NCBI RefSeq assembly: GCF_019633745.1
Contig: NZ_CP037968.1
Coordinates: 1,432,789 to 1,496,788 of the forward strand
Direction: 5' to 3'
Source of the DNA: Methanofollis formosanus
GTDB lineage: Archaea > Halobacteriota > Methanomicrobia > Methanomicrobiales > Methanofollaceae
Length of the DNA stretch: 64,000 nt
The translations under genes were made by a program, and so were the position numbers. This document shows positions 19,489-32,512 of this stretch, piece after piece. Every line of letters starts with the position of its first letter. Within the stretch, counting starts at the first letter, position 1. The notes under the pieces were generated by a model that saw only the letters and a list, made by a program, of their open reading frames with translations, did not search any database and was not told the DNA's origin.

Positions 19489-20430
19489 TCAGACCCGTAT
19501 CAACCCTTCAGCGTCCATCTCCCGGTAGGTCCGCCCCAGGCTCTCGGGCAGGGTCATGACCACCGGCTCGAGGTGGAGGCGTTCCATGAAGGCCGAGTCG
19601 GTCATCGAGGATGGGTTGGGGTTGACCCGGGCGATGAGCGAACAGAAGGCAGAAAAATATTCGGCGTCTTCGGGGCGCCCGAAGTAGACGGCCATATTGA
19701 ACGCCCGCGTGCCCAGGGCACGGTAGCACTCGATCACCCGGAGGACGCCCCTGGCCAGGGCCGGGATGGAGGGGCCGAGGTCTTCAGGGGTTGTCGCAGG
19801 CAGGATGCCCCGCACCTCCCGCTCGCCGACCGAGACAGAGTTTGCAAACCAGACCAGCCCGTCGTCTTCAAAGAGAAACCGGTCCGAGGTGCGTTCGTGC
19901 TCGACGAGGTCGGCCCAGTACGACCGGCCGTGGTCTCCGAAGTACCGCCTGCTCTCCCGGATATACCTGCCCTGGAGCGCGGTTGGCCCGGGATCGGCGA
20001 TCCCCTGGAGGTGGGGGTGGGCGATGCTCGCCCCGGCGGACGGGAGGTAGTTCCAGTTGATGGAGGCATAGTTTTCCCGGCCGGAGAGTGCCCGAGAGAT
20101 GCCCCGAAAGGCGTCTTCGAGGTGTCGCCGGGAGAAGCGATCGACGGCATGGGCGCCGGTGATCACGGTCACCACATGCCAGGAGGCGAAGGGATAGAGG
20201 TTCGGGAAGGTCACGCTCTCCCCACATCGGATCCTGGTGCCGTCGGAGAAGGTGGGCGTCTCGTGCTCGACCCTGCCCGGGCAGAACGGGCACTCTTCAC
20301 TGGGGGGAGGAGCATAGGGCGGGCTGATGTCTCGCTTGATCCGTTCTGGCGAGAGCCTGGCGGTGAGACCGGTCAGGTGTTCCCGACGGATCTGGACGCG
20401 GCCGGCTGCATATTCTTCAACCGTAAACAT
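19489..20430 (-). CDS. Galactose-1-phosphate uridylyltransferase-like HIT-superfamily enzyme
   Basis: 313 residues. An ECPFCPGR segment (C47, C50) resembles the GalT zinc site, and the HIT-type active site HPHLQ at residues 138-142 places the nucleophilic histidine at H140. GalT moves UMP between UDP-glucose and galactose-1-phosphate. Other archaeal members of the family act as related nucleotidyl transferases or ADP/ATP-sugar phosphorylases, so the exact substrate is uncertain. No other Leloir gene is in the window; it lies between mtd and mer without evident functional linkage. Confidence 0.82.
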   Translation of the reverse strand: MFTVEEYAAGRVQIRREHLTGLTARLSPERIKRDISPPYAPPPSEECPFCPGRVEHETPTFSDGTRIRCGESVTFPNLYPFASWHVVTVITGAHAVDRFSRRHLEDAFRGISRALSGRENYASINWNYLPSAGASIAHPHLQGIADPGPTALQGRYIRESRRYFGDHGRSYWADLVEHERTSDRFLFEDDGLVWFANSVSVGEREVRGILPATTPEDLGPSIPALARGVLRVIECYRALGTRAFNMAVYFGRPEDAEYFSAFCSLIARVNPNPSSMTDSAFMERLHLEPVVMTLPESLGRTYREMDAEGLIRV

Positions 20431-20559
20431 GCCTGCAGTTCAATTGTGGAGGCCTGGAGAGATAAATGCACCCAAAAGGTCGGGAAAGAACTCCTGAAAA
20501 GAAGGAGGACGGGGAACTTCCTCCAAAAAATGGTTTTATCGAGAACCCTGTTACAGGGC

Positions 20560-21549
20560 TCAGACGACGTACTTGCCGAGCAGGCGGATCGAGTTGGTCA
20601 TGTCGGGGCCGAGCGGGGACCCGAAGATGATCTGGGTGACACCGGCTGCCCTGAGGTCCTCACACTTCTGGACAACCATGTCGGGGGTGCCCGCGATGGT
20701 GAAGGCGTCGATCTCGGCGTCGGTGACGAGGCCGCCGACGGCCTTGAAGTCGAAGCGACCAAGGGCGTCCTTGATGGCGGCAACATTGCCGGCGTCGAGG
20801 CCGTGGCGCTCAAGGAGTGCGGGCGGAGAGCCTGCAGCGATGAATGCGGCAACGATCTTCGCGGCGTTGCGGGCCTTCTTCTCGTTCTTGTCGATGGACA
20901 TGGCGGTGTAGGCGCCGACGTCGTGCTTCTTGCGGCCTGCAGCTTCCTGAGCCTTCTTGATGATCGGGATGGCGATCTCGAAGTCCTTGGGGTTGGAGGC
21001 GTTGATGAGGGAGCCCTCACCCATGGCACCGGCGAGCTCGAGCATCTTGGGGCCCTGGGCGCCGATGTAGACGGGGATGCCCTTCTTGCCCGGAAGCTGG
21101 ACACCGGTGAGCTTGGCACCGTCGTAGTCGAAGAACTGCATCTCGCCGGTCTTCTTGACTTCCTCGCCGGCACAGAGTGCACGGATCTGCTGGACACCCT
21201 CCTTCAGGCGGGCGACCGGCTTCTCACCGTGGATGGCGAGCTTCGGAAGGGTCGAGAGGTCGCCGGGTCCGATACCGAGAACGGCACGGCCGTCGGAGAT
21301 CTCGTTCAGGGTGCACATGAACGATGCGATGGCTGCCGGGGTGTCGGTGAAGGTGTTCATGATACCCGGGCCCATCTTGATCGTGTCGGTGCTCATGGCG
21401 ATAGCCGCCAGCGTCGGGTAGCAGTGGCGGTTGTTATAGTGGTTGGTGATCCACGCGTAGTCGATGTCCTTCGATTCCGCGAGCTTGGTGTAATTGACAA
21501 CCTGCTTTACGCTGATGTTGCCTGGCACAAATTCAATTCCATAACTCAA
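20560..21549 (-). CDS. mer: F420-dependent 5,10-methylenetetrahydromethanopterin reductase
   Basis: 329 residues, luciferase-like TIM barrel. Reduces methylene-H4MPT to methyl-H4MPT with F420H2, the step after Mtd. Family sequence: GIEFVPGNISVKQVVNYTKLAE, AWITNHYNNRHCYPTLAAIA, GRAVLGIGPGDLSTLPKLAI. The start codon is TTG at 21549: no in-frame ATG precedes the family N-terminus, and a GAGGTG Shine-Dalgarno sits seven bases before the TTG. An out-of-frame ATG-CCT-TGA lies between and ends over the TTG. Confidence 0.97.
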   Translation of the reverse strand: MSYGIEFVPGNISVKQVVNYTKLAESKDIDYAWITNHYNNRHCYPTLAAIAMSTDTIKMGPGIMNTFTDTPAAIASFMCTLNEISDGRAVLGIGPGDLSTLPKLAIHGEKPVARLKEGVQQIRALCAGEEVKKTGEMQFFDYDGAKLTGVQLPGKKGIPVYIGAQGPKMLELAGAMGEGSLINASNPKDFEIAIPIIKKAQEAAGRKKHDVGAYTAMSIDKNEKKARNAAKIVAAFIAAGSPPALLERHGLDAGNVAAIKDALGRFDFKAVGGLVTDAEIDAFTIAGTPDMVVQKCEDLRAAGVTQIIFGSPLGPDMTNSIRLLGKYVV

Positions 21550-21582
21550 GGCATTTCACCTCAGAGAGAGTAGTTATCGCAC

Positions 21583-21808: not shown

Positions 21809-23728
21809 ATGCGGGTCTTGGCAATCGGACTTGGTGGTGCGGGTAACAGGATAGTCGACCGACTTTATGACCATGACCGACGCAGCAAGGTCTTCTGCAT
21901 GAGTGCTCTCGCCATCGACCTTGACGCAAACACTCTTCTCCAGCTCGACGCTCTTCCTTCTGATTCGCAGGTCTTCTTCCCCCCGATCGATCCGGCCAAT
22001 CCCTATGATGTCGAGACGAATATCGATATCGAGGAGGTGATGACGCGGATCCAGCGGATCGATACGGTGGAGATCGATGCCATCCTTCTTTTCGCGGGCC
22101 TTGGCGGGACGATGGTCGACCTGATCCCCCGCATCATGCCCCAGATGCGAGAGACCTTCCTCGAGCCGATCTTCGCGGTGGTCACGCTCCCCCGTGTGGG
22201 GGAGGGAAAGAAGGTCTCGGCAAAAGCGGCCGACGACCTGGAGATTATCCAGGAACTCACCGACGCCACGATCGTCTTCGACAACGAGACGTGGTACAAG
22301 AAGATCAGGACGTCGGGGACGCGAGGGATTGCCGACCCCTTCGGCAACGCCTCGTACGACCGGAACCCCCGCCTCGTGAATTCACTCCTCAACGAACAGA
22401 TCGCCCGGCGTATCGGTCTTCTTCTGAGGGCCGGCGAGTTCGGGAGCGAGGGGCTTGATGTCGGCGAGCTCGTCCTTGACGCCGGCGAGGTGCTCAACAC
22501 GCTCACCGGGATGGGGACGGTTGCGGTCGGGTATGCGGTCGAACGTCTCCATACCAGTCCGCTGGATATCCTGGGTTTCTGGAAGACGGCCAGGCAATAT
22601 ATGGAGGGGTCGCATCAGAGGGCGGCCCGGATCGTCAAACTTGCGAAGAGGGCGATCTACGAAGAGATTTCAGTGCCCTGCGACCTCACCAGTGCCCAGA
22701 AGGCCCTGGTCCTGGTGGCGGGACCGAGTTATGAACTGAGCCTCAAGGGGTTTGTGACGGTCAGGAAGTGGATCGACCGGAGTATCGCCGGGCTGGAGAT
22801 GCGGTCCGGGGACTACCCGGTGAAGAACACCAGGTTCGTGGGGATCATCATCGTTCTCTCGGGTGTGCAGAATGTGCCCAGGGTCGAGGAGTTGCAGCTC
22901 CTCCGCGAGGAGTACAGGATGGAACTCGAGGGAGAGGCGATGCACGGTGGGGCAGACGAGGAGTTCCTGGTCGTCGGGGGGGATGCAGAAATGGAGACTG
23001 GGGGATGGCCGGCGGAAGACCCGCTTGCTCCGTTCATGGTGCCGTCCTCAGGTGGAGATCGCGTGACAGAAGACTATTCTATGCCGAGAAAGTACGACGC
23101 CCCCGAGAAGCATGATGAGATGCTCGATCTTCAGGGGGGGAGAAAAGGTAAGAGGCACGGCGAGGGCGACGGGGTTCTCAGGCTCAACCTCTCGAGCGAT
23201 CATCTCAAGCGGACGGAGGACGACGACCGGGCCGTCATCGTCCCGGGTGTCGGGAAACAGGCGCCCCGCGACATTACCAGGATGACGGCGGTCGGTCTCC
23301 CGCAGGCGCCGAAGGACGCGGCCCTCGGGGCGACCGAGAGTCATGCTTTCGTGAAGAAACCGAAAGAGGTCGATCTCAAAGGGATTGAGGTCGAGACGCT
23401 CCCGATGGCGAAGGACGATCTTCTCGGCGGTGAGAATATCCGTCTCAGAGATATGATCAAGCCGGCAAACGACGGGGTCTTCAATGGCGGGCGTCTTCGC
23501 CTCAAAAGTGTCGTACAAAAGGCGAAGGATGACATCCTGGAGGGAAAAAAGGTCAAACTCTCCGATGTGACGACGCCTGTCGACTCGGTCCTGCGCGGGG
23601 GAAAACTCGCTCCGAAAAAGGCCCCGAAGGAGATCGTACCAGGCAAGGGAAAGATCTCGGTCTTCAAAGATGAAGAGGAAGACGAGGGAGGAGAGGAGCA
23701 GACCGGCGGGATCGACTGGATCATGTGA
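21809..23728 (+). CDS. Divergent FtsZ/tubulin-superfamily protein with a repeat-bearing C-terminal tail
   Basis: 639 residues. The N-terminal half follows the FtsZ fold: GLGGAGN at 7-13 (T1 loop), AIDLDANTLLQL at 35-46, a T4-like loop AGLGGTMVD at 96-104, VVTLPRVGEGKKVSAKAADD at 124-143 and a T7-like LDVGELVLD near 214-222. The T4 loop lacks the canonical GGGTGTG phosphate-binding motif, so GTP binding may be altered or lost. Residues 375-639 are a charged, low-complexity tail with three and a half copies of a 19-residue repeat (532-602). It could be a cytoskeletal or scaffold protein; it is not a normal cell-division FtsZ. Confidence 0.8.
   Translation: MRVLAIGLGGAGNRIVDRLYDHDRRSKVFCMSALAIDLDANTLLQLDALPSDSQVFFPPIDPANPYDVETNIDIEEVMTRIQRIDTVEIDAILLFAGLGGTMVDLIPRIMPQMRETFLEPIFAVVTLPRVGEGKKVSAKAADDLEIIQELTDATIVFDNETWYKKIRTSGTRGIADPFGNASYDRNPRLVNSLLNEQIARRIGLLLRAGEFGSEGLDVGELVLDAGEVLNTLTGMGTVAVGYAVERLHTSPLDILGFWKTARQYMEGSHQRAARIVKLAKRAIYEEISVPCDLTSAQKALVLVAGPSYELSLKGFVTVRKWIDRSIAGLEMRSGDYPVKNTRFVGIIIVLSGVQNVPRVEELQLLREEYRMELEGEAMHGGADEEFLVVGGDAEMETGGWPAEDPLAPFMVPSSGGDRVTEDYSMPRKYDAPEKHDEMLDLQGGRKGKRHGEGDGVLRLNLSSDHLKRTEDDDRAVIVPGVGKQAPRDITRMTAVGLPQAPKDAALGATESHAFVKKPKEVDLKGIEVETLPMAKDDLLGGENIRLRDMIKPANDGVFNGGRLRLKSVVQKAKDDILEGKKVKLSDVTTPVDSVLRGGKLAPKKAPKEIVPGKGKISVFKDEEEDEGGEEQTGGIDWIM
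23402..23614 (+). repeat. 19-residue tandem repeat in the tail of the FtsZ-like protein
   Basis: Encodes residues 532-602 as four units: PMAKDDLLGGENIRLRDMI, KPANDGVFNGGRLRLKSVV, QKAKDDILEGKKVKLSDVT and a short TPVDSVLRGGKLAP. The pattern is A-x-D-[DG]-[VIL]-[LF]-x-G-x(2-3)-[LVI]-[RK]-L. The repeats are diverged in DNA, so this is an old protein repeat, not a slipped microsatellite. Confidence 0.8.
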
Positions 23729-24360: not shown

Positions 24361-25314
24361 CTACGGAGAAAGTATCCTGGAGAACGGGATGGTGCCCGCG
24401 CCGATCTCGGTCCTGATCGCACACCCCAGTTCGACGGCATGGCCGATGAGGTTCATGCTGGAATATGAGACGATGGAGAGGCGGTAAGGCTCTTCTGAAA
24501 GATTGAAGACTTTTTCTCCCATGGTAACCGGGAAGAGGAAACCGGCCGAACGCATGGCGCCCGCGATCTCTTCGACATAACTCTGCGCAGGGAGCGGGAC
24601 TTTCCTGACATTGGCAAGGGCGGTGCCGGTGCCGGTGGTGACATACTCGCGCACCGAGGTGAGACCTGCCGAGATGAAGAGCTGGAGGGGGTCGATGCTC
24701 GTCCCGCGGTAGGAGACAAGGTCGGTGAACCGGGAGGGGCGGCCGTCAAGGACGGCGAGTCTGCCGCCGTATTTCATCTCCACCGGGACGCCGAGGCGTT
24801 GGAGCACGCCGTCCATGGTGACCGAACAGACGGTGATGAAGCCGGTGTGGCCGGGGGGGAGGCGGGGGTCGTCGTCGACGAGGTGGTACGAACTGAAAAA
24901 TCCGCATTCTATTGCAAGTACCGCGTCAAACGCTTTTTTCACCCGGTCGACCTCGGCGTCGGGGACGATCGAGAGGTTGTAGGCGACGTCGCCGGTGCAG
25001 GTGGTGGGGTCGAAGGTGGTCCTGACGGCAAGGCGCTCCAGTTTGGAGATGATGAACCCGATCCGCTCGCCGACCAGGGCGCTCTCGATCTCGGCGAGGC
25101 CTTTCTGGGTGAGAACCCGGCCGCGGTTGCCGATCTTTTCGGTGAACCCCATCTCGTCGAGGGAGCGGAGGTAGTACTGGACCGCACGGTCGGAGAGGAC
25201 GAAGCCGTGCTCTGCCATCAGTTCGGAGAGCCTCTTGGCGCCCATCGGGTCGGGGTGCTCCTTGAGAATCCTGAGGATCTCGATGTACTTGCGCTCGGTC
25301 CGGATCTGGCTCAT
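24361..25314 (-). CDS. NrpR-type transcriptional regulator (winged HTH plus one NrpR/DUF128 domain)
   Basis: 317 residues. Residues 1-70 form a winged helix (RKYIEILRILKEHPDPMGAKRLSELMAEHG) of the NrpR N-terminal type; residues 75-317 match one NrpR effector domain (TCTGDVAYNLSIV, GFITVCSVTMDGVLQRLGVPVEMKYGGRLAV). NrpR of Methanococcus represses nif and glnA and responds to 2-oxoglutarate. The single-domain form seen here resembles the split NrpRI/NrpRII arrangement of other methanogens. No nitrogen gene is nearby. It overlaps dcd by four bases and probably shares its promoter. Confidence 0.85.
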   Translation of the reverse strand: MSQIRTERKYIEILRILKEHPDPMGAKRLSELMAEHGFVLSDRAVQYYLRSLDEMGFTEKIGNRGRVLTQKGLAEIESALVGERIGFIISKLERLAVRTTFDPTTCTGDVAYNLSIVPDAEVDRVKKAFDAVLAIECGFFSSYHLVDDDPRLPPGHTGFITVCSVTMDGVLQRLGVPVEMKYGGRLAVLDGRPSRFTDLVSYRGTSIDPLQLFISAGLTSVREYVTTGTGTALANVRKVPLPAQSYVEEIAGAMRSAGFLFPVTMGEKVFNLSEEPYRLSIVSYSSMNLIGHAVELGCAIRTEIGAGTIPFSRILSP

Positions 25315-26083: not shown

Positions 26084-29000
26084 TTACTCGATCTTCAGGT
26101 ATGTTTTATCGTTCAGGAGCGCACCGAGGTCGACCTGCATGATGCAGTGGCGCGAACCGGCATCGTCGGTGTCGGCCACGACCCTGATGTAATAGGTGGT
26201 CAACGGCAGATCCCTGATATCAAGTCTGGCCCGTTCATGGGTCTCACCCTTCCCCGCGGTCCTGGTCTCTGCCAATGCCCAGGAACCGTGCTCCGCACGG
26301 TACTCGACCGTTTCGGTGACCGTGCTGTTGCCGGTGTAGGTGAGGTTCCAGGCGATATCCATGGTCTGGCGTGTGATCCCGGTTTCCCTGAGGCCATCGA
26401 GAGTGAGAGAGGCGTCTCCGAGAGGAACATTGTTCAAACTCCGCATCACGGTCAGGTAGGTGTCTGGAACCCTGAGGGTATCGGCCTCGTTGAAGGTCAA
26501 TATCGAGTTTTCATCCAGGATCTTGACGTTGCCGATGGCATCTGGATTCGGCCGGACTTTCAGTTTGAAGGTGGCCTGCCAGGTCTGGTTGAGTTTGATG
26601 GTCCCGATGTCGAAATCCAGTCTGCCTTTCGTCCAGTTCTCTGCGTCATTACGGCTCTTCGGATACCCTTCAACACTATCCTCATTGAACCAGACCATTT
26701 TCTCGTGGGTCTCAGGGATATACTCGAAGACCTCATCCCCTGCCGCCGTCAACACCGACGTGTTGGTGCTCACCGTGACATCGGTGAAGTCGAGGGCGAG
26801 CGAGGTGTTGACACCGGCCTCGATCCAGAGTTCACCGGCGATCTCAGAATATACTTTCTTGAGTTCGGTCTCGTTTTTCGCCCAGGTGTATCTTCCACCG
26901 GTTGACTCAGAGAGCGTCACCATATAGGGTTCCATCTCGGTCAGATCCGTGGACGCAAAGCCGATGGTGTAGAGAATTACGTCATTATTGGCTGCGTAGA
27001 CGGACATGTTCTGGTTGGTGAACTGACCATCATAGCACGCGATTTTACCTCTGGTTGTGTCATTCTTCGAGGGTATATCTGGAACCCAATAGGTGTCACC
27101 ATAGATGAATCTTGATGGCCTATCATATCGATGATATCTCAAATATTTTTTATCTCCTTTACACCACTGTCCTTCAAAAGAATAACTCAGTGTCTCCTCT
27201 CCTTTTATGTCCGAGTAGTAATGATAATCTTCATCTTCAAAGTAGTATTTAGAAAAATCATACTCCTCAGTCCATCCGATCCCCTGGGCAAGAGGGTTAC
27301 CATTAATATTCCATTTTCCATCTGAGATCAACACAACGGCCTTCACAGCATCTGGTCGCCCTGAAGAATTCAACTCATCTATTGCAAGTTTTAAAGAATC
27401 CCTCATGTTAGTTTTACCATCTAGTACATCTTTTGCCATATTAAGCAGAACTGTCAAACTAAAGGAAGGTATTGGAGCCAGATCATCAATATCCGCATTT
27501 ATTTTTTGAGAATCGTTGGTCAGAGATTGCGCTTTCTTCGCGAATTCGTTCATCACAATAAGTCCAACCCGACCCCTACCACACTCCAGATCCATCTGAT
27601 TAACAAAATCCTTCGCAGAATTTTGCGCTTCATTCAGCCGCGACTTACTGAGGCTTAAAACAATATTGCCATTATTATCTCGGTATCTCATGCTAACTGA
27701 CTTGTCCATCACCAGCACCACATCAACCGGTTTGCGCTGGAGTTTGTATCCATTCCCGATCAACGTGATATCCACCTCAACAGTATCGTTCCATGCTGCC
27801 TTCGGGGGGGTGACATTAGTGAGGACACTGAGATACGGGACATTGGTCCACTCCAGATCCACAGTTTGCTCTGGATACGAGTCCCACACCGCCCCAACTG
27901 TACAACCTGCGCGGGCAGGCGAATATTCCCCAACCTCAAACGACCCAGGATAAAGAAGCGCGACCGCATAACCCTGTTCATCGGTGAACGCCTCCGTTGT
28001 ATTGTCTCCTGCTGGGCTAGCCCAGTATGGCGGTTCTATCTGTGCATCCCCATGAGGACTCTTGATGGTGAAGGTGACCTTCTCTCCCGCGACGGGGTAC
28101 CCCTTCATATCCACGACTTTTGCCATCACCCTGGCGGGTTTGGCGTTCGGGACGTCGCCGCTCGGCATCATTCGGGGAGAGGCGGTGAGGACCATCCGGA
28201 CCGGCGCTGTGCTTGTGAACTCGACAACCTGAGTATCAATCAAATTCTCATTCTGAAGTGTCGTTGCGGTGATCGTCACCTTGCCTACCGTGTTCCTGGG
28301 TCCATAAGTGATCGTCGCGCGGCCAGCCCGATTCGTCAGAACAGTTTGGCCCTCATTCTCCCCTAATGAAGTGCTGATGGCAATCTCGGTACCATTACAG
28401 GGGTTTTTGTGCTGATCCAGGACTGTGTATGTGATGGTGAAGAGATCCTTGCCGTTCGCCGGAACCCAATCACTGTCGACCTCACCGGTGAGTTCGTACG
28501 GCATCTCATCTCCAGTGCCTATTATCGTGAGGTATTCGTCCTTTATCCCCTCCGGCAGGTCGATATACACAATATTTTCTCCTGCCTTCGTATCGATGGT
28601 AAGACCAACACTGACCACCCCGCTTCCATCCACCGGGACGACGATCTCCTTCTCCCCATTCCCAAAATGAGCGCGATCTCCCGGTGATCCGACATAGAAC
28701 GTCACGTTCTCAATCTCATTACGAGCATCGATCAGGTTCCCATACTCATCCTCCATTGAGAGTACGATCTCTGTCGTCGAACCGGCCGGAACCTCATTTT
28801 TGCACTCAAAAGACCGAAGTCGATATGGCTCCGCATGATCGATCTGCTGCTCACAACTCCTATTCACCGTATGCCCCTCGTCGGAACTGGCCGTTACATT
28901 GATCAGTGCGGTGCCGCTCTTCTTCCCCGGCAGAAACGTCGTCATCGCCCGTCCATCTTCATCGGTCTGGCCTGTCGTCCGGGAGAACGAACCCATAGTA

Positions 29001-29218
29001 GTGTTACAGGAGAAGACAACATCGGCCCCCTTCAGCGGACTCCCGTCGCTGTTGTTCACCCACGCGGTCACCACCACCCCGCCGGTGCCCCCCCCGACCA
29101 CCCACTCCGAACCGGTATCGACCGATAGTTGCAGGTTCTCCGAGGCCGTAACCGTCATGCAGATGATCAGAAGCCCGAGAAAAATGAACAGGCACTCATG
29201 ATAGGATCGGTCCACCAT
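26084..29218 (-). CDS. Secreted VWA-domain protein with N-terminal bacterial Ig-like repeats (surface protein A)
   Basis: 1044 residues. A signal peptide (about 1-25, hydrophobic LFIFLGLLIICMTVTA) is followed by Ig-like modules of the invasin/Big-1 kind up to about 490, with repeated G-x-A-x-[VI]-T-[FY] patterns. A von Willebrand A domain starts near residue 497 with MIDAS-like DKSVS. A Tyr-rich insertion (about 90 residues) follows the central VWA strand, and beta-rich domains end the protein. No C-terminal membrane helix or sorting motif is seen. It is a full-length paralog of the 29469 gene; the insertion is AT-richer than the rest. Likely a cell-envelope adhesion or binding protein. Confidence 0.85.
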   Translation of the reverse strand: MVDRSYHECLFIFLGLLIICMTVTASENLQLSVDTGSEWVVGGGTGGVVVTAWVNNSDGSPLKGADVVFSCNTTMGSFSRTTGQTDEDGRAMTTFLPGKKSGTALINVTASSDEGHTVNRSCEQQIDHAEPYRLRSFECKNEVPAGSTTEIVLSMEDEYGNLIDARNEIENVTFYVGSPGDRAHFGNGEKEIVVPVDGSGVVSVGLTIDTKAGENIVYIDLPEGIKDEYLTIIGTGDEMPYELTGEVDSDWVPANGKDLFTITYTVLDQHKNPCNGTEIAISTSLGENEGQTVLTNRAGRATITYGPRNTVGKVTITATTLQNENLIDTQVVEFTSTAPVRMVLTASPRMMPSGDVPNAKPARVMAKVVDMKGYPVAGEKVTFTIKSPHGDAQIEPPYWASPAGDNTTEAFTDEQGYAVALLYPGSFEVGEYSPARAGCTVGAVWDSYPEQTVDLEWTNVPYLSVLTNVTPPKAAWNDTVEVDITLIGNGYKLQRKPVDVVLVMDKSVSMRYRDNNGNIVLSLSKSRLNEAQNSAKDFVNQMDLECGRGRVGLIVMNEFAKKAQSLTNDSQKINADIDDLAPIPSFSLTVLLNMAKDVLDGKTNMRDSLKLAIDELNSSGRPDAVKAVVLISDGKWNINGNPLAQGIGWTEEYDFSKYYFEDEDYHYYSDIKGEETLSYSFEGQWCKGDKKYLRYHRYDRPSRFIYGDTYWVPDIPSKNDTTRGKIACYDGQFTNQNMSVYAANNDVILYTIGFASTDLTEMEPYMVTLSESTGGRYTWAKNETELKKVYSEIAGELWIEAGVNTSLALDFTDVTVSTNTSVLTAAGDEVFEYIPETHEKMVWFNEDSVEGYPKSRNDAENWTKGRLDFDIGTIKLNQTWQATFKLKVRPNPDAIGNVKILDENSILTFNEADTLRVPDTYLTVMRSLNNVPLGDASLTLDGLRETGITRQTMDIAWNLTYTGNSTVTETVEYRAEHGSWALAETRTAGKGETHERARLDIRDLPLTTYYIRVVADTDDAGSRHCIMQVDLGALLNDKTYLKIE

Positions 29219-29240
29219 ATAAAGATCAGATTATCTTATC

Positions 29241-29250
29241 AAATATATAG
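29241..29250 (-). promoter_or_regulatory. TATA box of surface gene A
   Basis: Minus strand CTATATATTT is centred about 26 bases before the ATG, which predicts a leaderless or nearly leaderless mRNA. The remaining spacer (29251-29468) is AT-rich with no gene. Confidence 0.6.
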
Positions 29251-29468
29251 ATTGTTCAATACATCGGATCCGATCAGGCACGTTCTTCAAAAAAGATCTT
29301 TTTAAAGCCCACAATTTCGATATACCAAATCCCGAAGAATTCATTCAGATTACGTGATAATAAAGAAAATATGAGACTGGTCAGAAAAAAGATCAGCCCC
29401 CGCACGGGCCATCAAAAAACTACAATATTCCAGAACAAAAGAAAAAACAAGAAAATCAGGCCCGAGCA

Positions 29469-32400
29469 CTACTCAAGCCTGATCTTGGTGCTGTCCCCGG
29501 TGCCGATGGTGATCTCCCCGTCGTAAGGGATTTCATCATCCCCGGCATCCGGGGCGGTTGCATGGACCCAGACATAATACTGGCCCGCAGGGATGCTCCG
29601 CACATCGATCTCGGCCGTCTGCGCGCCGACCTCTGCGGCAGAACGGGGCGGCATCTGCATGAATAATGTCTGGGTATGCCGGTTCTCGTCGGTCGAATAC
29701 CAGATCTTCTGGTCCACCGTTTCGGTCCCATTATAGTCGAGGTCCCACCCCAGTTTGAGGAACTCGGTGACCGGGCCGGTGCCGACCTGGTGGAGGTCGG
29801 AGAGATCGAGGATCACATTCCCGAAAACAGGCTCGGTGCCTTCCGGACGGACCGAGATGAAGGTGTCGGGGAGGGTGAGTTGATCGGCGCCGCCGTTGAA
29901 GGAGATGGTCGACCCGGGCCCGAAGACATTGATGTTGCCGTCGGTCTTTACCCTGAGACGGTACGACGTCGTCCAAGTCTGGCCGAGCCTGACGGTCCCG
30001 ACATCATAGTGGAGGGACTGGTCGTCCTGCCAGTCGGCGGTCTGGTCCTCGGTGTGCCACGGGACCACCACGTACCTGCCCGACTCGTTCTCGACCCAGC
30101 TCTCGATGACCGTCGAGATACCGTCCTCGTAGATGTACTCGAAGACATCGTCGCCAGGCACCGCTGCCCCGTTCACCTCGACGTTCTCGAAGGAGAGATC
30201 GATGGTGGTGTCGACGCCTGCCTCGGTCTTGAGTTCGCCGGCGATCCGCTTGTAGATCCCGGCGAGTTCGTCGCCACCGGGAGCGTGTGCGTAGAACCCA
30301 CCGGTCAATGAGGCCAGCGTCTCCATCGTATTGGTGACTTCCGGACCAGGGCTGTAGGCAAAGGTGATCGGATAGAGTTTTATTCCATTATCCAGAGCGA
30401 AGCGACCCATATTCTGGTTTGTCTCCTCGCCATCGTGGCAGTGCCACTGACGTTCGTCTTGATAATAGTAACCTCCGCCCCACCACTTAGCATATGGAAC
30501 AGAAACCCATCCATAATCGAGTGTCCCACCGAGGCCGTCGTAATACTCATAGTAATCATACAGGATCGTACTTCCGCTCCATCTCCCAACGCCATCAGGC
30601 AACCCTATACCTCGTCCGAGCGGATCAGCATCAGTATTCCAGTCACCGTCGGTCATGACGATCACCGCCTTCACCGCGTCGTCCCGCCCCTGCTCCTGGA
30701 GAAGCCTGATGGCCTCGTAGATCCCCCGGCGCAGTTGCGTCGAACCATCTGCTCTAAGAGCATCCAACTGGGTCTTGACACCAGAGAAATCATCGGTCAG
30801 GCCCCTGTCAATGGTCGTCGTGGAAGAGAAAGATACAAGCCCCACCCGGTCACGTCGCGGATCCATGGCATCGATAAAGGTTGAAGCGGCGTTTTTTGCA
30901 CTGACCAATCGGACCTCTCCGGAACTGTCCTCCCCCCGCATGCTCCCGGACCTATCGATGACCAGCACCACGTCGATCGGTTCGGGCTGCAGGGCCCAGC
31001 CGTCGCCTTTCAGGGCGAGGTTCACGTCGATCGTCTCGTTCACCGCGACCTGCCCGCTCTCGGGTTCCACCCACGCGGAGACCGAGAGGTAGGGGAAGTT
31101 CACCCAGCGGAGTTCGATCTCCCTGGTGACGCTCCCCCATGTCGCGGAGACCACGCCGGTCCCGCTGGCGGCCGAACTGTAGGCCGGGTCGTCCCGATCG
31201 GTGGTGAACCCGCCGGGCCTGAAGAGTATCGTCGCATACCCGTTCTCGTCGGTGGTGGCCACATCCCCGAGGAGCGCCGGGGCGTCAGTCACCCCGTATG
31301 ATCCGGTGTTGACGGTGCCGAGCGAGAAGGTGACCGTCTCGTTCGGGACCGGGTTGCCCTTCACATCGATCACCTTGGCCCGCACCTCCGCGACACTCCC
31401 CGCGTTCACGTCATAGCTCGGCATCGTCTGCGGGTTGGCGGTGAGGAGCATGTCCACCGGATCGGTGTGGACGAACTCCACCACCACCGTGCACGAGACC
31501 GCGGGGTCGTCCACCGAGACGGCGGTGATCGTCACCAGCCCGGTCACGTCCCTGGGCCCGAAGGTGACCTGGGCGAGGCCGGCCGAGTTGGAGGTGGCGA
31601 CGGTCTCCGTCCCCACGTCTGAGGTGACCCGGACCGAGCGGTTCCCGGCCGGGTTGCCGTACTGGTCCTTCATCGTATAGGTGATCGTAAACCGACTCTC
31701 CCCGTCGGCAGGGAGATAGGGGGGAGTCCCGCCAGGATTGACCGAGGCGGTGATCGAACTGGGGGCCCCGTCCCCGATCCCGTAGAATGTCAGATAGAGG
31801 TCTGCCACCGGCTCGGGAAGGTCGACGAAGACGACATTCTCACCGGCAGTCCGGGCGACCCTGAGTTCTGCGCGGACCGTCCCGTCGGCACCTACCGGCA
31901 GGACCACATCGTCGCAGTAAGCCGTGCCGTCGAAGATCCCGGCGCTCCCGTCCGGCGACCCGACACCGAACCTGAAGGTCTCTGCAATCCTGCGGGCGTC
32001 GACCAGATTGCCGTACTCGTCCTCCAGCGAGAAGACGATCCCGGTCGTGGTGTCGACGCTCACCCTGCTCTCATAGTCCAGGGACTGCAGGCGGTACGGC
32101 GGCGCATGGTCGATCTTCTGCTCGCAGGTGCCGGAGACTTCCGCCCCCCCGGACTCCACCGTCGCGGTGATCAGGGCGGTGCCGCTCCCGGTCCCGGGAA
32201 CAAAGGTAGCCGTCGCCGTCCCGTCTGGACCGGTTGTGGCCGTGACAGGGGAGAACAAGCCCATGGCAGCGCCACAGGAGAAGGTGACGTTCATGCCGGG
32301 GAGCGGACTCCCCCCGGCATCGGTCACCGTGGCGGTAACGGCGGTCCCTGCACCGCTGCCCGCGACGAGCCACTCCTCGGCGGACGTGACGGCGATCCGG

Positions 32401-32477
32401 GGGCCCTCTGCGGCCATGGCCCCCGCACAGAGGAGAAGGACACCCATCAGGAACGCCCAGTATCGTATTTGACCCAT
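29469..32477 (-). CDS. Secreted VWA-domain protein with N-terminal Ig-like repeats (surface protein B)
   Basis: 1002 residues from ATG 32477, which has a GAGGA Shine-Dalgarno; an in-frame TTG four codons upstream is unlikely. The signal peptide (1-24) ends AGAMAAE. The order matches surface protein A: Ig-like modules to about 490, VWA with full MIDAS DRSGS near 503, the conserved T of TDDF and the DG of TDGDWNTD, then an aromatic insertion (YDYYEYYDGLGG and WWGGGYYYQ) and C-terminal beta domains. No membrane anchor is visible. A and B probably arose by tandem duplication. Confidence 0.87.
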   Translation of the reverse strand: MGQIRYWAFLMGVLLLCAGAMAAEGPRIAVTSAEEWLVAGSGAGTAVTATVTDAGGSPLPGMNVTFSCGAAMGLFSPVTATTGPDGTATATFVPGTGSGTALITATVESGGAEVSGTCEQKIDHAPPYRLQSLDYESRVSVDTTTGIVFSLEDEYGNLVDARRIAETFRFGVGSPDGSAGIFDGTAYCDDVVLPVGADGTVRAELRVARTAGENVVFVDLPEPVADLYLTFYGIGDGAPSSITASVNPGGTPPYLPADGESRFTITYTMKDQYGNPAGNRSVRVTSDVGTETVATSNSAGLAQVTFGPRDVTGLVTITAVSVDDPAVSCTVVVEFVHTDPVDMLLTANPQTMPSYDVNAGSVAEVRAKVIDVKGNPVPNETVTFSLGTVNTGSYGVTDAPALLGDVATTDENGYATILFRPGGFTTDRDDPAYSSAASGTGVVSATWGSVTREIELRWVNFPYLSVSAWVEPESGQVAVNETIDVNLALKGDGWALQPEPIDVVLVIDRSGSMRGEDSSGEVRLVSAKNAASTFIDAMDPRRDRVGLVSFSSTTTIDRGLTDDFSGVKTQLDALRADGSTQLRRGIYEAIRLLQEQGRDDAVKAVIVMTDGDWNTDADPLGRGIGLPDGVGRWSGSTILYDYYEYYDGLGGTLDYGWVSVPYAKWWGGGYYYQDERQWHCHDGEETNQNMGRFALDNGIKLYPITFAYSPGPEVTNTMETLASLTGGFYAHAPGGDELAGIYKRIAGELKTEAGVDTTIDLSFENVEVNGAAVPGDDVFEYIYEDGISTVIESWVENESGRYVVVPWHTEDQTADWQDDQSLHYDVGTVRLGQTWTTSYRLRVKTDGNINVFGPGSTISFNGGADQLTLPDTFISVRPEGTEPVFGNVILDLSDLHQVGTGPVTEFLKLGWDLDYNGTETVDQKIWYSTDENRHTQTLFMQMPPRSAAEVGAQTAEIDVRSIPAGQYYVWVHATAPDAGDDEIPYDGEITIGTGDSTKIRLE

Positions 32478-32512
32478 AGTCTTCCTCAAGGTACGTACAC
32501 ATTCATACCCAC

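Follow-up and report, generated by a model that had tools for sequence, protein, structure and literature searches.

The window, a stretch of 64,000 nucleotides of Methanofollis formosanus DNA, encodes a protein of 639 residues that is almost certainly derived from CetZ and lacks an ordinary GTP site. Because the T4 loop GGGTGSG and the T3 loop KGHGxGxD of intact CetZ are absent, the protein is named here a CetZ-derived pseudo-GTPase, or pseudo-CetZ, and not a GTPase CetZ. It probably works in the same process as intact CetZ. The fuller reading, in which it is the partner of the cell's one intact CetZ with a T7 docking face and a recruiting tail, has, taken as a whole, about even chances of being right. 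The gene and its main parts are:

21809 to 23728, plus strand: pseudo-CetZ gene, 639 amino acids, start codon ATG, stop codon counted in.
21809 to 22975, plus strand: folded CetZ core, residues 1–389, AlphaFold2 mean pLDDT 84.9 and pTM 0.86.
22388 to 22897, plus strand: CetZ_C domain (PF21011), residues 194–363.
22976 to 23725, plus strand: disordered tail, residues 390–639, pLDDT below 50 throughout in the full-length model.

The open reading frame and coordinates had been assigned correctly by the sequence-only reading, and every element that it named is found in the 639-residue translation. In Pfam searches the protein matches CetZ_C with E=4e-43 (147 bits against a cut-off of 21.6) and the tubulin/FtsZ GTPase domain PF00091 with E 2e-11, above cut-off; 56 of 56 orthologues show both domains. 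Among proteins of known structure, the closest by phmmer is Haloferax CetZ1 (1.5e-46). When the full-length model is compared with known structures, Foldseek ranks CetZ1 and CetZ2 first (E 4e-29 to 4b46) and VIA-align gives a Z of 36.7 with an rmsd of 2.2 over 324 residues to 4b45, Haloferax CetZ2. Phylogenetic analysis places 28 orthologues in a single clade (support 99/99) adjoining intact CetZ, the branch leading to all CetZ of this type has support of 98/98, and the orthologue clade is recovered with 100 in a second tree; because the stems are long, the exact sister of the clade is uncertain. Predicted structure and phylogeny thus both lie inside the tubulin superfamily. The label FtsZ-like given from sequence alone holds to that extent and fails for FtsZ itself, since the CetZ_C match, the tree and a score of only 34.1 bits to the FtsZ equivalog model TIGR00065 (cut-off 295.2) identify a CetZ paralogue. 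Two true FtsZs above the TIGR00065 cut-off are encoded in the same genome. In two other genomes FtsZ lies in open frames of about 890–925 codons (family f14; L175, G172:C1:2117479, and L178, G163:C1:22381), perhaps with an in-frame insert such as an intein. With Haloferax CetZ1 (4b46), CetZ2 (4b45) and the intact CetZ of the same genome, the pseudo-CetZ shares the fold, the CetZ_C domain, T1, T5, T6 and T7/H8, and its branch adjoins theirs. It differs from archaeal CetZ by the absence of the T3 and T4 phosphate loops and by the addition of an insert after T6, a 250-residue repeat tail and a tryptophan end motif. A grouping with the CetZ of Methanosarcinales (3zid type) is unsupported, as the tree puts those rows on the FtsZ side; they keep an intact SGGTGSS loop.

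The gene is not a singleton and is found throughout the order. A profile built from 18 orthologues finds the protein in 148 of 149 Methanomicrobiales genomes (a class-level set, completeness at least 85%), alongside an intact CetZ in 147 of the 149. The one exception is a fragmented genome (G147), whose sole match, at E 5e-46, looks like an intact CetZ. No such protein turns up among 129 genomes from the rest of the phylum; the best matches there, at about 1e-50, run over the C-terminal half of ordinary CetZs. The locus is conserved as well. In most genomes of the order the gene is preceded by the ribosomal genes L2-L4-L3, by mtd, by a GalT-like gene and by mer; mer is divergent from the gene at a distance of about 140–740 bp in nearly all genomes compared, and nrpR is convergent downstream in about two thirds of them. 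In the window the immediate neighbours are:

20560 to 21549, minus strand: mer, luciferase-like family, F420-dependent methylene-H4MPT reductase by context; divergent neighbour in conserved synteny.
24361 to 25314, minus strand: nrpR-type regulator; convergent neighbour in conserved synteny.

With mer divergent and nrpR convergent, the gene is alone in its orientation, and the earlier suggestion that it is transcribed alone fits this layout. The most diverged copies, which have no tail (G064, G091, G050), share the locus, which shows their orthology. A horizontal or sporadic origin can be rejected, because most genomes of the order have the same arrangement rpl-mtd-galT-like-mer next to the gene. 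Other features of the window are recorded here for completeness. The GalT-like protein (19489–20430, minus strand), whose synteny is conserved, resembles by eye a galactose-1-phosphate uridylyltransferase (AHPHLQ) and has no Pfam match at E 0.001. An open frame of 666 codons (19573–21570, plus strand), running antisense to the GalT-like gene and mer, is apparently an effect of base composition and not a gene. Two large adjoining proteins with Big_1 (bacterial Ig-like) and von Willebrand A domains (26084–32489, minus strand) are probably surface proteins, and relatives of them lie downstream of the gene at many orthologous loci.

In tubulin-like filaments, the nucleotide of each subunit is held by its own T1–T6 loops, and hydrolysis requires T7/H8 of the next subunit to complete the site. 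These elements have met very different fates in the pseudo-CetZ:

21827 to 21853, plus strand: T1 loop GLGGAGNRI (residues 7–15), kept, with Gln10 of intact CetZ replaced by Gly.
21911 to 21931, plus strand: T2, AIDLDAN (residues 35–41), where Asn37 of intact CetZ is Asp in 99% of orthologues.
21977 to 22009, plus strand: place of T3, where the KGHGxGxDN...GA of intact CetZ has either been deleted or shows no conservation.
22094 to 22129, plus strand: degenerate T4 loop AGLGGTMVDLIP (residues 96–107), from the alignment with intact CetZs.
22190 to 22207, plus strand: T5, P...EG (residues 128–133), kept.
22277 to 22294, plus strand: T6, FDNETW (residues 157–162), kept.
22304 to 22366, plus strand: variable insert after T6, about residues 166–186, absent from intact CetZ.
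22466 to 22504, plus strand: T7/H8 block ELVLDAGEVLNTL (residues 220–232), from the alignment with intact CetZs.

The motifs first recognised by eye, T1 GLGGAG (7–12), AIDLDAN (35–41), VVTLP (124–128) and the T7/H8 block (220–232), are all present, and the altered T4 loop is real, for the protein reads AGLGGTMVDLIP where intact CetZ reads AGLGGGTGSGGAP. Overlooked at that stage were the T3 phosphate loop, which is degenerate as well, and the insert after T6, within which pLDDT is low at residues 173–179. To measure conservation, the orthologues were aligned with 34 intact CetZs, and a column counted as kept if the residue that is invariant in intact CetZ recurs in 90% or more of the orthologue rows. 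By this measure the orthologues keep 4 of 6 invariant columns in T1, 0 of 4 in T2, 0 of 10 in T3 and 3 of 11 in T4, where only the glycines of the leading GxGG survive; they keep 3 of 3 in T5, 3 of 3 in T6, 4 of 8 in H7, 7 of 10 in T7/H8, 14 of 21 in the C-domain and 7 of 30 elsewhere. GGGTG is found in none of the 136 non-redundant orthologue rows used for motif counts and in 34/34 intact CetZs, so the change in T4 is neither chance nor sequencing error; a frameshift is likewise ruled out by the orthologues. Among the CetZs of Halobacteria, T4 is intact in 26 of 30 loci by an automatic reading whose pattern missed the loop in the other four. T1 GxGGAG, T5 EG, T6 FDN and the H7 Asn (the last in 99% of orthologues) are conserved at 97–99%, so that some nucleotide may still bind, and T2 has become a conserved D-x-D. 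In tubulins T2 reads D-x-E, and by this likeness the T2 of the pseudo-CetZ need not be dead by itself. In the T7/H8 block, Asp224 is present in 99%, Glu227 in 98%, Asn230 in 97% and Thr231 in 99% of orthologues. The loss of the loops and the retention of T7/H8 suggest that the means of holding the phosphates have gone while the part that acts on the nucleotide of a neighbour has been retained.

The C-terminal 250 residues carry two recognisable features:

23306 to 23563, plus strand: region of 17–19-residue repeats, with profile matches at residues 500–510, 535–549, 554–570 and 573–585.
23708 to 23722, plus strand: C-terminal motif GIDWI (residues 634–638), of h-x-W-h type, the protein ending in GIDWIM.

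Motif counting is too weak for Methanofollis, where 4% of shuffles score as high, and a profile trained solely on other genera was therefore used for the repeat. It gives 23 bits on the window protein with a period of about 19, and five shuffles give no match; the tails of the orthologues contain 2.66 units on average, shuffled tails 0.004. The 19-residue repeat proposed earlier at 532–602 was thus recovered, with bounds right to within one unit. Tail length ranges from none to about 760 residues, and since the tail is absent in some Methanoregulaceae and related genera, it is not essential to the function of the core. The pattern [ILVFM]xW[ILVM] followed by at most two residues ends 84 of 108 distinct tailed orthologues (0.1% of shuffles), and near variants such as GFWM, DLFWA and ASWVR end several others. 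In the same genome FtsZ1 ends in DIDFLR and FtsZ2 in LIDFL, compared with GIDWIM in the pseudo-CetZ. Archaeal SepF binds the C-terminal GID motif of FtsZ (PMC8178401), and M. formosanus and 30 of 31 relatives encode SepF. Like the SepF-binding peptide of archaeal FtsZ, the end of the pseudo-CetZ is a short hydrophobic-acidic-aromatic motif at the very end of the chain, after a flexible linker; it differs in having Trp for Phe/Tyr and, often, T, S or F for Asp. The replacement of this Asp in many orthologues weakens the reading, and the putative link to SepF is offered as a lead from sequence likeness. The intact CetZs of Methanomicrobiales and relatives also end in a conserved motif, of D/E-P-L-F-E type (e.g. 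L031:3012-4190), which is another candidate C-terminal peptide.

As a rule each genome holds one CetZ of each kind; in M. formosanus the intact one is at G000:C1:2451711. The genomes of one genus (g6: G016, G021, G026, G041, G071, G103) encode two intact CetZs, not one, in addition to the degenerate CetZ. Evolutionary rates were compared in 24 genomes on a fixed topology of 45 branches derived from FtsZ1, Mer, Mtd, L3 and the GalT-like protein, with neither CetZ used. The branch lengths of the pseudo-CetZ correlate with those of intact CetZ (partial Spearman 0.67, p 6e-7, all five controls partialled out), and for tips only, in the version controlling for the mean of the other proteins, the value is 0.81. 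With the same five controls the pseudo-CetZ shows no coupling (FtsZ1 -0.08, Mer -0.14, Mtd -0.13, L3 0.26, GalT-like 0.07). With FtsZ1 as the sole control, an enlarged comparison of 34 genomes gives a rate covariation of 0.76 with intact CetZ, versus 0.17. The pseudo-CetZ evolves faster, with a tree length of 15.3 against 4.1 for intact CetZ. Measured against five control proteins, the covariation supports functional coupling with intact CetZ, not necessarily contact; both proteins being CetZs, their rates may be coupled because they share a process, with no need for them to touch.

Archaeoglobi provide a second case in which, by sequence, the side that holds the protein's own nucleotide is lost and the T7 side kept. 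All nine Archaeoglobaceae genomes examined encode a single intact CetZ together with a second one, even more degenerate than the pseudo-CetZ, which has about 300–315 residues and scores above the CetZ_C cut-off (loci L272–L280, e.g. G176:C1:2138616-2139071). In the N-terminal half of this second protein T3, T4, T5 and T6 are unrecognisable and T1 is worn; GE[IV]D...GEVV[VI]DTSDxxN is nearly invariant and the C-domain is kept. The node that would give the degenerate CetZs of Archaeoglobi and Methanomicrobiales a common origin has support of 72/94, which decides neither for shared nor for separate origin.

In the mechanism proposed here, the pseudo-CetZ would bind an intact CetZ subunit by setting its T7 face against the GTP face of that subunit, where the T7/H8 acids Asp224 and Glu227 would help to complete the GTPase site of intact CetZ. 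A further subunit would stack poorly or differently on the altered nucleotide face of the pseudo-CetZ itself, so that the pseudo-CetZ may cap, seed or punctuate CetZ filaments and share the work as the two tubulins of the dimer do. Through its repeated motifs and its h-x-W-h end, the long flexible tail would bring further factors to the end of the filament, SepF or another membrane anchor perhaps among them. Comparable subunits, which either contribute to a common GTPase site or work on an active relative after losing the site of their own, are alpha/beta-tubulin, gamma-tubulin, ARC3 and Misato; they belong to other domains of life, and the loss in the pseudo-CetZ is independent of theirs. The loss of T3 and T4, the retention of T5, T6 and the T7/H8 acids, the pairing of the genes, the coupling of their rates and the similar case in Archaeoglobi support a partner of intact CetZ. 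Against it stand the structural role that the T7 block also has and the state of the C-domain as a whole, whose conservation (14 of 21 invariant columns) comes close to that of the block.

A homopolymer that does not hydrolyse GTP is unlikely. Such a protein would bind nucleotide through T1, T5, T6 and H7, as the conservation of these elements and the D-x-D of T2 allow, and would build stable filaments or a scaffold of its own, with the tail as decoration. However, T3 and T4, on which the grip on the beta and gamma phosphates depends, show no conservation; self-stacking should conserve the nucleotide face in some altered form, yet T3 varies freely, and the coupling with intact CetZ is left unexplained. 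The non-hydrolysing filament of the sequence-only reading keeps some plausibility but is less favoured than a partner of intact CetZ, because the T7 acids are kept, the phosphate loops are lost and the rates track intact CetZ. A gene in decay without function is barely credible: catalytic motifs are lost and evolution is faster than that of intact CetZ, but one locus persists in almost every genome of the order, with its frame open in the orthologues and dozens of invariant residues across the whole core.

The long repeat-bearing tail and the conserved end motif would also suit an adaptor that does not polymerise, in which the CetZ fold links a membrane or envelope partner, bound through tail and insert, to a component of cell shape, T7 being kept for folding. 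The binding of SepF to the FtsZ GID motif (PMC8178401), the likeness of the FtsZ1 and FtsZ2 ends to GIDWIM and the presence of SepF in nearly all relatives point the same way. This is nevertheless improbable, as both acids at 98–99% are more than the upkeep of the fold seems to need, the same T7 block is kept in Archaeoglobi though most of the pocket is gone, and orthologues without a tail exist. The FtsZ-like protein ARC3 is thought to restrain chloroplast FtsZ, and the pseudo-CetZ might likewise work against assembly, sequestering or severing intact CetZ instead of joining its filaments. Retention of one interface only fits a capping or sequestering protein as well as a copolymer, and so does the rate coupling; this version, which sequence alone cannot separate from a partner of intact CetZ and which is partly a variant of it, is given a very low probability.

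Parts of this picture are already published. Makarova and Koonin (2010) stated that some archaeal FtsZ paralogues lack functionally important motifs (PMC2875224); in the available part of that paper the statement is general and gives neither group, pairing nor mechanism. According to the accessible portion of Brown and Duggin (2023), genomes of Methanomicrobiales and Archaeoglobales have two CetZs each, one Halobacteria-like and the other deeper and 'non-Halobacteria-like', suggested to be functional pairs (PMC9856176). The pseudo-CetZ very probably belongs to the latter group, as far as that portion describes it, and intact CetZ to the former. The account there, in the same portion, rests on the M-loop and phylogeny and does not include the missing GTP site, the tail, the end motif or the coupled evolution; the present tree does not place the pseudo-CetZ with Methanosarcinales CetZ. 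No GTPase-dead CetZ or pseudo-tubulin of methanogens was found in the open-access literature, nor was any description there of the dead site, the tail and the rate coupling; an earlier description may exist in subscription papers.

The pairing of a live with a dead CetZ gives a first specific lead on the role of the uncharacterised second CetZ of Methanomicrobiales, and the h-x-W-h end is a candidate short motif for the membrane recruitment of CetZ filaments. Both proteins are short enough to purify, and there is a clear prediction: GTP bound by the live copy should be acted on by T7 of the dead copy. It is a tentative and rather doubtful further step that Methanomicrobiales, and perhaps Archaeoglobi, have an obligate two-subunit CetZ cytoskeleton, in which one protein holds GTP and the other, lacking a functional GTP site, supplies the catalytic T7 edge and a recruiting tail. 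How a self-assembling GTPase gave rise to unequal subunits is an old question in the origin of alpha/beta-tubulin, and an order of archaea in which a live and a dead CetZ evolve in step offers a testable natural case. If true, a two-subunit CetZ cytoskeleton would be the archaeal counterpart of the tubulin dimer with its unequal subunits.
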